A stretch of 64,000 bases of DNA from Streptomyces sioyaensis (GTDB lineage Bacteria; Actinomycetota; Actinomycetes; Streptomycetales; Streptomycetaceae). Location of the stretch: assembly GCF_004122735.1 (NCBI RefSeq), contig NZ_SDIF01000005.1, positions 62,001 to 126,000 on the forward strand. The letters are read 5' to 3'. Positions 8,564 to 12,790 of this stretch are shown here, piece by piece. Under the pieces are notes generated by a model that did not search any database, was not told where the DNA came from, and worked only from the letters and a program-made list of their open reading frames with translations. The stretch's first letter is position 1; each line of letters starts with the position of its first letter. The translations under genes were made by a program, and so were the position numbers.

Positions 8564-9823
8564 GTGAACGTTTCACGCGACGGCCGACCCGCGTCGGCCG
8601 CCCCTGTGGCGGGGCGGCCGGCGGCGACACCGAGCCTGCGCCGGAGGCTCACCGAACTGCGCGGCCCCGGTGTCCGCCCCCGCTCCCTCGATGCCCGCGC
8701 GCTCGCCGCGCTGGCCGCCAACCCCGGCTGCCGGCGCCGGGCGCTGCTGGACGGCGCGGGCATCGACAAGGCCGCGCTGGCCCAGGCGCTGGGCTCGCCC
8801 GCGGCGTACGGCCAGTCCCAGTTCGCGATCGTCCGCGGCCATGCCTTCGAGGCCCGGGTGACCTCCGACGGCGGCACGGAACTGCTGCGGCTGCTGCACG
8901 AGCGGCTGCCGCCCGGCACCCCGCCGCCCGCGCCCGACGAGGTCGCCACCCCGGATCTGTCCGCGGCCGGACCCGAGGGCCGTACGGCGCGTACGGCGCT
9001 GGCGCTGCGCGAGGCGACCGCGGCCGGCGGCTGGGCGCTGCTCCGGCACCCGATGCTGGCGGTCGAGGTGGCCGGCTCGCCCGCCTATGTGGAGCCCGAT
9101 GCGGTGGTGGTGCATCCGGACGGCAGCTGGACGGTCGTCGAGATCAAGTCCTTCCCCATGATCGACGGTGCCGCGGACGCCGCCAAGGTGGGCGCCGCCG
9201 CCCGGCAGGCCGCGGTGTACGTCCTGGCCCTGGAGCCGGTCGCCGGCCATGTCGGTGCGTACACGGGCCGCGAGGTGACGGTCCGCGACCGGGTGCTGCT
9301 GGTGTGCCCGAAGGACTTCTCCAACCTCCCCACCGCCGCGGCCGTCGACGTCCGCAAGCAGCTGGCCACGACCCGGCGGCAGCTGGCCCGCCTCACCCGC
9401 GTCGAGGACATCGCCGGCGCGCTCCCCGAGGGGACCACCTTCGACCTCCGCCTCGGGGACGACGGGAAGACCGCCACCCGTCCGCCCGAAGAGCTGGCCG
9501 AGGCCGTCGAGGCGGTCGGCGCGGCCTACGCCCCCGAGTGCCTGGCCGCCTGCGAACTGGCCTTCCACTGCCGCAAGCGGTCCCGCGAGGAGGGCGCGGT
9601 GGAGACGCTGGGGCGCGGCGTACGGGGCGAGTTGGGCGGGCTGCGCACGGTGGCGGAGGTGCTGGCGGCGGCCGGTCCCGGTGCCCCGGAGCCGCCCGTG
9701 GCGCCCGGCGGCCCGGACGACCCGGCCGTCGTCGCGCTGCGCCGGGCCGCCGCGCTGCGCGCCGAGGCACTGTCCCGGACCGTGGTGCCGGGGCCGCGAG
9801 CGGAGGAGCCGGGATGTCACTGA
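8564..9823 (+). CDS. Four-cysteine PD-(D/E)XK nuclease (Cas4/Dna2/AddB-like)
   Basis: Predicted iron-sulfur DNA nuclease of 419 residues (GTG start). The PD-(D/E)XK core is intact: D179 in VEPDAVVV, E193 and K195 in VVEIKS, and Q215 in ARQAAVYVL. One cysteine lies upstream (C56 in NPGCRR) and three downstream (C326, C330, C336 in [12 protein letters not shown]). This 1+3 spacing is the layout that holds a 4Fe-4S cluster in Cas4, AddB and Dna2 nucleases. Its last codons overlap the next gene by ten bases and a superfamily 1 helicase follows, so the products probably form one DNA-processing complex (repair, recombination or defence). Residue numbers assume the GTG at 8564. Confidence 0.75.
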
Positions 9824-11364
9824 TCGACACGCTGGCCCGGATGGAGGCGGTCGCCGCGGGCCGCGCCCAACCGCGGTGCACGGTCCGCCACCGTCATCTG
9901 TCCCGGCGGCCGCTGGTGCTGGTCCCGTTGACGACCGCGGGCGAGGCCGGTGCCCCGCTGGGCGCCCTGGTCGGCACGGACCGCGAGAAGCCGGCGCTGC
10001 TGGCCGTGCCCCAGCCGCGCGACCGTGAGCTGCGGTTCGCGTTCCTCGCCGAGCTGGCCGAGGCGGTGCTGCCGTACACGGACGGCTTCGCGGACGCCGT
10101 CGAGTGGGAGGAGCGCAAGGAGACCGACCCGGAGACCGGCAAGAAGGTCCCGGTGCAGGTCGAACTGTGCGCGGACGCACCGCAGTTGCTCGTGCCCAGC
10201 GGCGCCGGAATCGAGTTCGTACGGCTGCTGGGCCGCTCGATGCGCTTCCGGCGCACGGCCGAGCAGGAGCCGGAGGCGCCGTATCCCGCGCCGCCGCACG
10301 TCCCGCTGCTGGGCCGCTGGCTGACGCATGTCGGCGAGCGGGCGCGGGTCCCGGGCTCCGGTCTGCTGCTGTCCATGACGGACCTGCTCACCCGCCACTG
10401 GGCCACCGGCCAGAGCGCGCTGGAGGACCAGCATCTGGGCGCGCTGCTGTCGTGGATCGACCCGCCGCCGGGGATGTCGGGGCGGGCGGCCGCCGAGCGC
10501 GCGGAGTGCGCGCGGGACGCGGACGGGCAGCTGCTCTGCCCGCCGGCCGGCCCGGCCACCGACCCGGCGTTCGACAACCGGCTGCTCGCGCCCGCGATGG
10601 CCCGCTACGACGCCGGCCTGCCGGGCGCCGAAGAGGCGCTCCGCGCCCTGATCGAGGGCCAGTTGCGGCCGACCTGGGACGCCGTGTGGCACGGCGTCGA
10701 CCTGCTGCGGGCGCTGCCGGAGGGCACGCGGGTCGCCGAGCGCTGGAAGCGCGACCGCTGGTCGTACACCGCACACCGGGACCGGGTACGCGCCGGCGAG
10801 CCTCCGCAGCCCCGGCAGGACGACGCGGTCACCGCCGCACAGAAGTTGTCGGCCCGGGAGAGCGCGCAAGCCCGGCTCGACGCCCAGGAGGCCCTGGACG
10901 ACCCGCTGGTGATGGCGGGGCGCCGGCTGGCCGGCGAAGCGTTCCAGGGCACGGTCACCGCCGTCGAGATGGCGATGTCCGAGGGCAAGCGCCCGATGCC
11001 GCGCCCGCTGGTCACCTTGCGCACGGACGACCGCCCGCAGCTGGCGGAGGGCGTCAGGCTCCACCGCCCGCTGGCGGACGGCCGCACGCAGACCGCCGAG
11101 TTCGTCGCGTTCGAGGGCGACGACGAGGCGGCGCCGGTGGTGCGGCTGACGGGCGGGATGGGGCGCGGGAAGACCCCGGAGCCCGGTTCGGTGCCGGAGC
11201 CGGGCGACACGGTGTGCTGGACGCTGTTCGAGCACTCCCCGCGCGGCGGGCCCGAGCTGCCGGACCCCGAGGACACCCCCTGGACCCACGGCGGCCCGCC
11301 GCCCGGTGCCGCCGGGGCGCCGCCCGACGCCCCCGACCCCGTGACCACGGAGGACTTCCTGTGA
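9814..11364 (+). CDS. Unknown protein between nuclease and helicase
   Basis: 516 residues, no family recognised. ATG 9814 overlaps the nuclease stop by ten bases (CGGAGGAG lies just upstream), so the two are translationally coupled, and the helicase gene begins 41 bases after its stop. The first half is globular and mixed (LVLVPLTTAGEAGAPLG, VELCADAPQLLVPSGAG); the middle carries charged helices (LIEGQLRPTWDAVWHGVDLL, WKRDRWSYTAHRDR). The region with ETVxRTDDRPQL-like texture and VRLTGGMGRGKTPEPG could be a small beta domain. The C-terminus is proline rich. Context suggests a DNA-binding or scaffold subunit of the nuclease-helicase set; this is inference only. Confidence 0.7.
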   Translation: MSLIDTLARMEAVAAGRAQPRCTVRHRHLSRRPLVLVPLTTAGEAGAPLGALVGTDREKPALLAVPQPRDRELRFAFLAELAEAVLPYTDGFADAVEWEERKETDPETGKKVPVQVELCADAPQLLVPSGAGIEFVRLLGRSMRFRRTAEQEPEAPYPAPPHVPLLGRWLTHVGERARVPGSGLLLSMTDLLTRHWATGQSALEDQHLGALLSWIDPPPGMSGRAAAERAECARDADGQLLCPPAGPATDPAFDNRLLAPAMARYDAGLPGAEEALRALIEGQLRPTWDAVWHGVDLLRALPEGTRVAERWKRDRWSYTAHRDRVRAGEPPQPRQDDAVTAAQKLSARESAQARLDAQEALDDPLVMAGRRLAGEAFQGTVTAVEMAMSEGKRPMPRPLVTLRTDDRPQLAEGVRLHRPLADGRTQTAEFVAFEGDDEAAPVVRLTGGMGRGKTPEPGSVPEPGDTVCWTLFEHSPRGGPELPDPEDTPWTHGGPPPGAAGAPPDAPDPVTTEDFL

Positions 11365-11404
11365 CCCGTCCCCGGCCCTCGACAGCCCTGGAGAACACCG
11401 CCGT

Positions 11405-12790
11405 ATGACGGCCACTCAGGCTCACCGTCCCGACCCCGGCCGGCCCTTCGACCCCGCCGCCGAGGCCGCCGCGGCGACCGACCGGATCCTGCACGACACG
11501 CTGCACGGCACCCTGCGCGGGGTGGTCGTGGACTCCCCGCCCGGCGCCGGCAAGTCCACCCTCGTGGTGCGGGCGGCCCGCGAACTCGCCGCCGCCGGAC
11601 GCCCGCTGATGGTGGTGGCGCAGACCAACTCCCAGGTCGACGACCTCGTGCTGCGGCTCGCCGAGAAGGACCCGCGGCTGCCGGTCGGCCGACTGCACAG
11701 CAGCGAGCCCGGGGCCTTCGACCCGGCGCTGGCCGAGCTTCCCGCGGTCCGTACGTCCGCGAAGATCGCCGAGTTGGCCGGGATGGACATCGTGGTCTCC
11801 ACGGCCGCGAAATGGGCGTACACCAAGGTCGACGAGCCCTGGCGGCACGCCATCGTGGACGAGGCCTATCAGATGCGCTCCGACGCGCTGCTGAGCGTCG
11901 CCGGGCTCTTCGAACGGGCGCTGTTCGTCGGCGACCCGGGCCAGCTGGATCCCTTCAGCGTGGTCGGCGCGGAGCAGTGGGCGGGGCTGGCGTACGACCC
12001 GTCGTCGAGCGCGGTGTCCACGCTCCTGGCCCACAACCCCGGTCTGCCGCAGCACCGGCTGCCGGTCTCCTGGCGACTGCCCGCCTCGGCCGCGCCGCTG
12101 GTCTCCCGCGCGTTCTATCCGTACACCCCGTTCCGCAGCGGCACCGGCCCCGGCGACCGCCGGCTGGCGTTCGGGGTGCCGGGCGACGGCTCGGGCGTGG
12201 ACCGCGTGCTGGACGAGGCCGCCGAGTCCGGCTGGGGCCTGCTGGAACTCCCCGCCCGCCACACCCCGCGTACGGACCCGGAAGCGGTGCGCGCGGTGGC
12301 CCACGTCGTACGCCGGCTCCTCGACCGCGGCGGCGCCACCACCAGCGAGGCCTCCCCTGCCGCGGCCGGGGAGGCGCCCGCCCCGGCGCCCCTGACGGCC
12401 GGCCGGATCGCGGTCGGTACGGCCCACCGGGACCAGGCGGCGGCCGTCCGCGCCGCGCTCGCCGGGCTGGGGGTGACCGGCGTCGCGGTCGACACCGCGA
12501 ACCGCCTCCAGGGCCGCGAGTTCGACGTCACGGTCGTGCTGCACCCGCTCTCCGGCCGTCCCGACGCCACCGCCTTCCACCTGGAGACCGGCCGGCTGTG
12601 CGTGCTCGCCTCCCGCCACCGCCACGCCTGCATCGTGGTCTGCCGGGCGGGCGTCGCCGACCTGCTGGACGAACACCCCTCGACCGAACCGGTCAGCCTC
12701 GGCGTCACGGTCAAGTTCCCGGACGGCTGGGAGGCCAACCACGCCGTCCTCGCCCATCTGGCGGAACACCGGGTGGGGTGGCGTCCGTAG
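11405..12790 (+). CDS. Superfamily 1 DNA/RNA helicase-like ATPase
   Basis: 461-residue P-loop ATPase of the SF1 (Upf1/Dna2-like) type. Motif I is SPPGAGKST (K50), motif Ia VVAQTNSQVDDLV, motif II IVDEAYQM (D152-E153), motif III GDPGQLDP near residue 177, then VSWRLP (motif IV area), DTANRLQGREFDVTVV (motif V) and a C-terminal LASRHRHACIVV (motif VI). The motif II variant DEAY is unusual. It is shorter than Dna2 and lacks a nuclease domain, which is supplied by the separate gene two positions upstream. I infer one operon 8564-12790 making a split helicase-nuclease. Confidence 0.75.
   Translation: MTATQAHRPDPGRPFDPAAEAAAATDRILHDTLHGTLRGVVVDSPPGAGKSTLVVRAARELAAAGRPLMVVAQTNSQVDDLVLRLAEKDPRLPVGRLHSSEPGAFDPALAELPAVRTSAKIAELAGMDIVVSTAAKWAYTKVDEPWRHAIVDEAYQMRSDALLSVAGLFERALFVGDPGQLDPFSVVGAEQWAGLAYDPSSSAVSTLLAHNPGLPQHRLPVSWRLPASAAPLVSRAFYPYTPFRSGTGPGDRRLAFGVPGDGSGVDRVLDEAAESGWGLLELPARHTPRTDPEAVRAVAHVVRRLLDRGGATTSEASPAAAGEAPAPAPLTAGRIAVGTAHRDQAAAVRAALAGLGVTGVAVDTANRLQGREFDVTVVLHPLSGRPDATAFHLETGRLCVLASRHRHACIVVCRAGVADLLDEHPSTEPVSLGVTVKFPDGWEANHAVLAHLAEHRVGWRP

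Follow-up and report, generated by a model that had tools for sequence, protein, structure and literature searches.

Locus and gene layout

The 64,000-nucleotide stretch of Streptomyces sioyaensis DNA analysed here (contig NZ_SDIF01000005.1, positions 62,001 to 126,000; hereafter the window) belongs to a genome of 7.85 Mb and carries three successive forward-strand genes, P1, P2 and P3, whose predicted products resemble the consecutive parts of a Dna2-type helicase-nuclease. A first-pass annotation, made from the sequence, had described them as a split Dna2-like machine in one operon: an iron-sulfur (Fe-S) nuclease, an unrecognised protein and a superfamily 1 (SF1) helicase. The three open reading frames are present as it described, with P1 and P2 overlapping by 10 bases (P2 starts at 9814 and the P1 stop codon ends at 9823); 40 bases lie between the P2 stop and the P3 start. 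The P1 start codon is ambiguous, the gene caller having favoured 8606 over 8564. Since the reading frame 5' of P1 (histidine-phosphatase-like by eye) runs divergently, the operon probably starts with P1. The closest P3 relatives in the tree described below are from Streptomyces.

Residue conservation was counted over 100 P1, 103 P2 and 110 P3 rows, leaving out rows cut by a contig end, those with a broken frame and those lacking a start codon in range. Of these rows, 63, 66 and 74, respectively, came from a set of 80 loci, the best 80 of at least 511 candidate P3 relatives (tblastn, E 1e-3; the remaining 431 may include other helicases). A second set comprised 38 loci from surveyed relatives and phylum genomes. 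The features of the locus are as follows.

8564..9823, + strand: P1, predicted Fe-S PD-(D/E)XK nuclease subunit (419 residues, N-terminal start uncertain; assigned by motif, conservation and predicted fold)
8729..8731, + strand: C56 of P1, first cysteine of the predicted 4Fe-4S site (kept in 99 of 100 P1 rows, one gap)
9098..9220, + strand: predicted nuclease active site D179, E193, K195, Q215 and Y219 of P1 (98, 93, 97, 98 and 97 of 100 P1 rows)
9539..9571, + strand: C326, C330 and C336 of P1, the remaining three cysteines (each in 100 of 100 P1 rows)
9814..11364, + strand: P2, putative scaffold subunit (516 residues; N-terminal alpha/beta and helical region, C-terminal long helices and beta-barrel in the model)
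10732..10929, + strand: long helices 307-372 of P2, stalk-like (secondary structure of the model; the Dna2 alignment starts at 353)
10939..11229, + strand: predicted beta-barrel 376-472 of P2 (aligned with IGHMBP2 36-139 and Dna2 460-567)
11405..12790, + strand: P3, predicted superfamily 1B (SF1B; Upf1/Dna2-like) helicase motor (461 residues, 43 of them before Walker A)
11534..11557, + strand: P3 motif I (Walker A), SPPGAGKS (G47, G49 and K50 in 110 of 110 rows)
11858..11872, + strand: P3 motif II, DEAYQ (D152, E153 and Q156 in 110 of 110 rows)
11927..11944, + strand: P3 motif III, VGDPGQ (G176, D177 and Q180 in 110 of 110 rows)
12590..12622, + strand: P3 motif VI region, GRLCVLASRHR (R397 in 110 of 110 rows; R404 in 109 of 110, one gap)

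P1, a predicted Fe-S nuclease

The 1+3 cysteines and the residues D179, E193, K195 and Q215 picked out by the first-pass annotation are indeed found at these positions of P1, conserved in 93-100 of the 100 rows. The conservation of these residues and of the P3 motifs excludes a chance resemblance. The Pfam model PDDEXK_1 weakly matched 4 of 41 P1 relatives (best E 0.0018), and searches of PDB sequences with P1 and with its profile returned nothing useful. The AlphaFold2 model of P1 (alignment of 41 sequences; predicted local distance difference test, pLDDT, 87.8) contains the expected PD-(D/E)XK core. Its top Foldseek matches were MGME1, RecE, EXO5, Cas4 (SSO0001) and ACE1 (E 0.0012-0.0033, probability 0.94-1.00). 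VIA placed Cas4-Cas1 first (Z 10.5, root-mean-square deviation (rmsd) 4.6, 197 aligned), followed by EXO5 (Z 9.0), LHK-Exo and RecE (8.8) and AddA (8.5), with AddB (7.2) and Dna2 lower. Structurally, the P1 model is closest to the Cas4, EXO5 and lambda-exonuclease kinds of PD-(D/E)XK nuclease, and motif, conservation and predicted fold together point to the Fe-S-type (1+3 cysteine) nuclease of Dna2-type enzymes.

Catalytic residues are altered in 7 of the 100 P1 rows, spread over three lineages; the cysteines are retained even there. The P1 proteins encoded beside a pPIWI-RE system (L030:8967-10082, L031:8829-9989, L032:10019-11134) carry Leu and Arg in place of the catalytic Glu and Lys, all four cysteines being kept. 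Glu and Lys are both present in the sister locus L105; the adjoining pPIWI-RE system has a PD-(D/E)XK protein of its own. The alphaproteobacterial P1 proteins of L078, L087 and L093 carry E to V and Y to G, the latter at the Tyr of the QxxxY motif, with D to N in L078 and Q to E in L078 and L087, and that of L102 carries D to S and E to V. A migrated acid is possible in the altered rows.

P3, a predicted SF1B helicase

The SF1 motifs I, II, III and VI reported for P3 in the first-pass annotation were borne out. Motifs Ia, IV and V were discerned by eye, and R224, Q369 and G370 are also identical in 110 of 110 rows. AAA_11 and AAA_12 of Pfam matched above their cut-offs, and the NCBIfam models for the PLuB helicase (E 4.6e-14) and the IGHMBP2 family (E 3.5e-7) below theirs; PADLOC gave general helicase matches only, including weak ones to Mokosh helicases (E 2e-6) and GajB (E 0.003). 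The best PDB sequence match was mouse Dna2 (P3 43-190 against 648-800, E 3.4e-8), and P3 has the Upf1-like SF1B helicase core of Dna2-type enzymes. No UvrD Pfam model was among the P3 matches, which sets P3 apart from the UvrD-like SF1A motors of AddAB, AdnAB and RecBCD. A barrel precedes Walker A in Dna2 and IGHMBP2; in P3, where Walker A begins at residue 44, the preceding stretch is too short to form one.

P2 and colinearity with Dna2

No family and no convincing match was found for P2 among family models (Pfam, PADLOC, NCBIfam) or PDB sequences, nor for P2 members against Pfam or the P2 profile against PDB sequences. The AlphaFold2 model (37 sequences; pLDDT 89.6, predicted template modelling score 0.85) has an alpha/beta part at the N-terminus, followed by a helical middle, long helices at 307-372 and a barrel at 376-470. 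The best VIA match was between P2 366-472 and IGHMBP2 36-139 (Z 9.8, rmsd 2.2, 85 aligned), followed by SETX (Z 8.2) and Sen1 (Z 7.7); P2 353-473 aligned with mouse Dna2 460-567 (Z 7.5, rmsd 2.7, 91 aligned). Foldseek placed human Upf1 helicase cores first (E 0.02-0.03, probability 0.98). In a viral fold library the single match under 0.001 was to a functionally uncharacterised phage protein (E 5.6e-4, rmsd 27), the other matches being scattered.

According to the accessible part of PMC4716839, the nuclease and helicase of Dna2 are separated by a beta-barrel carried on two stalk helices, features that the RecD2 branch of SF1B lacks. The P2 model has such a barrel on a stalk. The view of P2 as wholly unknown was accordingly rejected: the description of P2 as unrecognised fails for the C-terminal helices and barrel, which match the Upf1/Dna2 type, and stands for residues 1-300.

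P1 15-342 aligned with mouse Dna2 20-409 (VIA Z 6.8), and P1, P2 and P3 match Dna2 20-409, 460-567 and 648-800, in the same order as the genes. As P2 appears to hold the stalk and barrel that join nuclease and helicase in Dna2, the three genes read as a Dna2 cut at its domain borders and colinear with the single chain. In this anatomical sense the models support the split Dna2-like machine of the first-pass annotation.

Distribution and co-occurrence

P1 was found in 43 of 61 relatives (36 of 37 within the genus) and P2 in 44 of 61 (37 of 37). Across the phylum P1 was present in 14 of 296 genomes, one of them marginal (G211/L045, with nothing behind the match), and P2 in 11 of 296. The P1-P2-P3 order is intact in the window and in 34 of the 38 loci of the second set, the exceptions being L042 (P3 about 36 kb away), L045 (the marginal match), L046 and L062 (contig end). 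All three genes are present in 69 of the best 80 loci; 9 others are cut by a contig end, and the remaining 2 are from Micromonospora, with P1-P2 about 9 kb away or on other contigs. The joint occurrence of the three genes thus holds in both sets. Among the 69 are partial or broken copies, such as a Chloroflexi locus with a broken P1 (L088) and L108, in which another gene separates P2 from P3. An overlap of 4-11 bases joins P1 to P2 in 45 of 60 loci and P2 to P3 in 42 of 63. In the window and the intact loci the proteins are encoded by separate genes, not as the single polypeptide of Dna2. Micromonospora musae (G353) has two P1-P2 pairs (C10:35057-37695 and C17:6668-9273), with P3 elsewhere in the genome.

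The family ranges from Streptomyces to Alphaproteobacteria, and the best 80 loci also take in a Chloroflexi genome and Acidimicrobiia. One locus titled as a Bifidobacterium breve metagenome-assembled genome (MAG), L070, has a doubtful label; its P3 is placed among those of Acidimicrobiia and other Actinomycetota MAGs. In a 246-genome phylum sample the cassette P3 proteins had E values of 2e-164 or lower, against 4e-16 or higher for the next helicases, a gap that makes the P3 family well bounded. An apparent P2-P3 fusion in G010/L046 (7165-9966) was rejected, the P2 matches lying in two frames and P1 being missing; in this genome, the sole member of the genus without P1, the cassette seems to be decaying.

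Single-chain actinobacterial relatives of 1100-1450 residues have RecB-like, RNase H-like (by eye) and SF1B parts. They are clearly homologous to P3 (hhalign 99.8%, E 2.6e-30), and their best score against the P3 profile (E 4e-16) is far below those of the cassette P3 proteins. An equivalence between the N-terminal part of P2 and their RNase H-like part was not supported, hhalign giving no match.

Searches of viral contigs with the P1 and P3 alignments confirmed no relative, nor was any found in phages, which were searched with P3 and not with P1 or P2; within these searches there is no sign of a viral origin. Three plasmid records have P1 or P2, namely two Streptomyces plasmids and an 11.85 Mb Nonomuraea record, and 44 have a P3 match, of which 3 cover at least 80% of the query.

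The syntenic core group and a fourth gene

A P3 tree of 110 rows was built with FastTree, which gave long-branch warnings (the over-long L064 row was cut to its last 460 residues). Neighbouring genes were called with our own gene caller, which missed the gene cluster c5 at least in L028, where it is in fact present, and grouped by BLAST clusters; rows sharing at least two of six neighbour clusters were termed core. The 42 core rows (Streptomyces and one Kitasatospora), whose neighbourhood the window shares, form one tree group with support 100, and the window copy belongs to this syntenic Streptomyces core group.

Beyond what the first-pass annotation described, many non-core copies have a fourth gene, c5, called in 37 of the 68 other rows and in none of the 42 core rows. 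It encodes about 281 residues, had no Pfam or PADLOC match in the copies scanned, and lies directly upstream of P1 on the same strand in 39 of 39 loci where it was called, with a 4-base overlap in 20. Its conserved region may be a winged helix, a guess made by eye. Among the 61 relatives c5 occurs in 7 genomes, always at a non-core cassette, plus one marginal match in G010; it was not seen in the deep branch (L043, L044, L066-L076) or in the cassettes of G040, G044, G045 and G047. As the c5 copies of Actinomadura, Nocardia and Nonomuraea have neighbours common across species, c5 is not a mark of mobility.

Defence-type neighbours

Neighbours were identified with PADLOC and Pfam on selected representatives: one SbcD, one SbcC, one of three alphaproteobacterial methyltransferases and, for the type 2 JetC, L034 only. 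SbcD (Metallophos and a weak SbcD_C) and SbcC (SMC_N and SbcC_Walker_B) are adjacent to the cassette in 14 loci, compared with 0 of 42 core loci; for L029 and L119 this refers to a piece or gene of SbcD alone. SbcCD is divergent and upstream of the cassette in 12 loci; in Kibdelosporangium (L135) and Virgisporangium (L131) it lies downstream, co-directional and within about 35-120 bases. In the P3 tree these loci occupy three positions: 11 of the 12 rows of one group, L033, and L131 with L135.

Wadjet genes follow P3 in the same direction in 9 loci, all of which belong to that 12-row group; several of these loci are nearly identical. Five have jetABCD type 1 about 150 bases behind P3 (representatives JetA1-D1), three have Wadjet type 2 genes about 260-280 bases behind it (representatives JetA2-B2), and L034 has JetA2-B2-C2. 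The repeated position right behind P3 exceeds mere presence in the genome, the loci being few and related.

L030-L032 adjoin a pPIWI-RE system (PprPIWI, PprDinG, PprRE and PprPDDEXK, from L031 and L032), and L032 additionally adjoins HmaA-HmaB. The deep-branch loci L043 and L068 adjoin Type III methyltransferases and UvrD-like helicases, that of L068 with a PD-(D/E)XK part. In L078, L087 and L093 (Sphingopyxis, Novosphingobium) a methyltransferase-like gene (cluster c81) lies directly upstream of c5; the L093 copy matched MTase_II (E 1.3e-16). PADLOC-DB 2.0.0 had no model matching P1, P2 or one c5.

Also in the deep branch, c29 genes (L044, L069-L075, L077), mostly of about 560-650 residues, follow P3; they have an RNase_H_2 domain (L077 copy scanned) and, by eye, a cysteine-rich RecB-like N-terminal part. 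A tyrosine-recombinase-like gene was seen by eye near the cassette, on the P1 side, at L043:11377-12557.

Proposed machine and alternative readings

We hypothesize, with a probability of about 0.6, that P1, P2 and P3 are subunits of one Dna2-type helicase-nuclease, a three-gene machine with a core role in repair that has been partly recruited to defence. The observations behind this reading are gene order, conservation, predicted folds, colinearity and neighbourhoods, from which we infer complex formation, polarity, substrate and role. The role would be the processing of single-stranded DNA (ssDNA) ends, in part turned to defence. By analogy, P3 would be an ssDNA motor with RecA domains 1A and 2A, moving 5' to 3'; P2 would give P3 the missing stalk and beta-barrel and dock it on the nuclease; and P1 would be an iron-stapled nuclease that cleaves the threaded strand. 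Loading would take place on a free ssDNA end or flap, after which the machine would travel along one strand and cut it. The three-gene copy of the Streptomyces core would be a vertically kept enzyme that processes DNA ends or flaps for replication or repair. Other copies, many with c5, may in part have been recruited to defence islands, there to degrade or resect DNA that partners such as SbcCD and Wadjet have opened, or to act with methyltransferases. The motor, scaffold and nuclease half of this scheme draws on predicted structure and colinearity, and the core and island roles on gene neighbourhood alone. The earlier suggestion of a repair, end-processing or anti-phage function fits these contexts, a syntenic core copy and others beside SbcCD, Wadjet, pPIWI-RE and methyltransferases.

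Several observations weigh against this reading. P1 of the window matched no Pfam, PADLOC or NCBIfam model at E <=1, and neither the P1 nor the P2 model had a PDB match under E 0.001 in Foldseek, the fold matches of both being moderate. With 7 of 100 rows catalytically altered and P1 broken in L088, nuclease activity appears not to be universal in the P1 family. P2 is recognisable in the model only in its barrel and long helices, residues 1-300 having no assigned fold. Unrelated reductase-type barrels score Z 7.6-7.8 against P2, level with Dna2 (7.5), and the case for the barrel therefore leans on IGHMBP2, SETX and its position. The single-chain relatives match the C-terminal part of P1 weakly (hhalign 37.5%, E 3.5e-4), and their middle has no sequence match to P2 in hhalign. 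P3 lies apart from P1-P2 in 3 genomes, and the loci overall are not a random sample. The loci with SbcCD or Wadjet are mostly close relatives from one 12-row group. Wadjet is present in 42% of Actinobacteria according to the accessible part of PMC10482375, and its presence in a genome is thus to be expected.

Among the alternatives, the one that survives best is that the system is primarily anti-plasmid or anti-phage, c5 recognising foreign DNA or regulating, P1-P2-P3 degrading that DNA, and the core copy being a domesticated relic and not a repair enzyme. We consider this rather unlikely, at a probability of roughly one in four. The copies beside Wadjet, SbcCD, pPIWI-RE, Hma and Type III and Type II-like methyltransferases favour it, as do those on the two Streptomyces plasmids and the Type III-like methyltransferase that adjoins the bad genes in the accessible part of PMC7430649. 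On the other side, the window locus is syntenic in 42 core rows, none with a tracked SbcCD, Wadjet, pPIWI-RE or methyltransferase cluster (core neighbours beyond these clusters were not scanned against PADLOC); the c5 copies of Actinomadura, Nocardia and Nonomuraea share neighbours across species and have no tracked defence cluster; and no PADLOC model matches P1 or P2.

It is improbable that P3 is a Upf1/Senataxin-like helicase on RNA or RNA-DNA hybrids in a machine that clears R-loops or transcripts. The barrel fits IGHMBP2, SETX and Sen1 at least as well as Dna2, and the weak Mokosh match points the same way; against this, P1 resembles Cas4, EXO5, AddA/AddB and Dna2, whose known substrates are DNA, the best PDB sequence match of P3 is Dna2, and the neighbouring SbcCD and Wadjet act on DNA. 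Equally improbable is a common operon of proteins that work separately (P1 as a lone nuclease, P3 as a lone helicase, P2 with another partner), suggested by the P3 about 36 kb off in G261, by its separation in two Micromonospora genomes and by the P2 pieces and P3 kept without P1 in G010, since P1 and P2 are adjacent in nearly all loci read, the three genomes with a detached P3 still hold both parts, and P2 bears a kind of domain that P3 is missing.

Relation to known systems

Eukaryotic DNA2 (mouse, PDB 5eax/5eaw/5ean) has, in the same order, an Fe-S RecB-family nuclease, a stalk and barrel, and a Upf1-like SF1B helicase. The system described here differs in being bacterial and divided over three genes, in the extra N-terminal region of about 300 residues in P2, and in the location of some copies in defence islands. 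Among characterised bacterial enzymes the nearest is Bad of Geobacillus stearothermophilus, which the accessible part of PMC7430649 describes as one chain with an Fe-S nuclease, an uncharacterised central domain and an SF1B helicase, adjoining a Type III-like methyltransferase in Geobacilli. Bad shares the Fe-S nuclease and SF1B helicase with the cassette, and the methyltransferase neighbour with some of its relatives, but is one polypeptide as opposed to three genes; the comparison is by description and not by sequence. This characterised single-chain bacterial DNA2 had gone unmentioned in the first-pass annotation.

AddAB, AdnAB and RecBCD likewise combine a nuclease and an SF1 helicase for DNA ends, and the AddB nuclease is of the Fe-S type. 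They use UvrD-like SF1A motors and combine nuclease and motor-type domains in a single chain. Cas4 and the Argonaute-associated Cas4 (ACE1) share the predicted fold and cysteine layout with P1, which differs in its linkage to P2-P3. Neither Cas1-Cas2 nor a classical Argonaute could be recognised in the neighbourhoods read, and three copies lie by pPIWI-RE. No cas gene was recognised by eye in the neighbour clusters inspected, most of which went unscanned. A literature search covering few subscription journals and preprints found no description of this gene set. What is new here is the Dna2-like plan split in three, the unassigned region of P2 and the four-gene form elsewhere; the set was not filed as a Dna2 protein.

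A further proposal, possible but doubtful, is that SbcCD, a Mre11-Rad50 complex, and the split Dna2 (c5-P1-P2-P3), often with Wadjet, are an immune counterpart of eukaryotic MRN-DNA2 resection, and that the altered P1 proteins serve as an Fe-S DNA gauge. Wadjet would open foreign circular DNA, SbcCD would clear the ends, and the split Dna2 would unwind and destroy the strands; a nuclease-changed P1 would keep its Fe-S fold as a gauge where another nuclease cuts.

If the three-gene reading is correct, a large bacterial genus has the domain plan of Dna2 in separable subunits, and the roles of nuclease, barrel and motor could be tested gene by gene. It would also make this set a candidate for DNA-end processing in Streptomyces and may connect Mre11-Rad50 and Dna2-type processing with plasmid immunity, and P2 may help with the unknown central domain of Bad.

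Genes downstream of P3

In the Streptomyces core locus P3 is followed by P4 (12906-13298) and P5 (13488-14108). These were set aside as parts of the machine, genes being inserted between P3 and P4/P5 in L063 and L064 and an inversion being present in L125. P5 of the window, conserved beside the core cassette, matches a Prim-Pol domain (E 5.4e-6); its match to the SCO3374 family falls below the cut-off.

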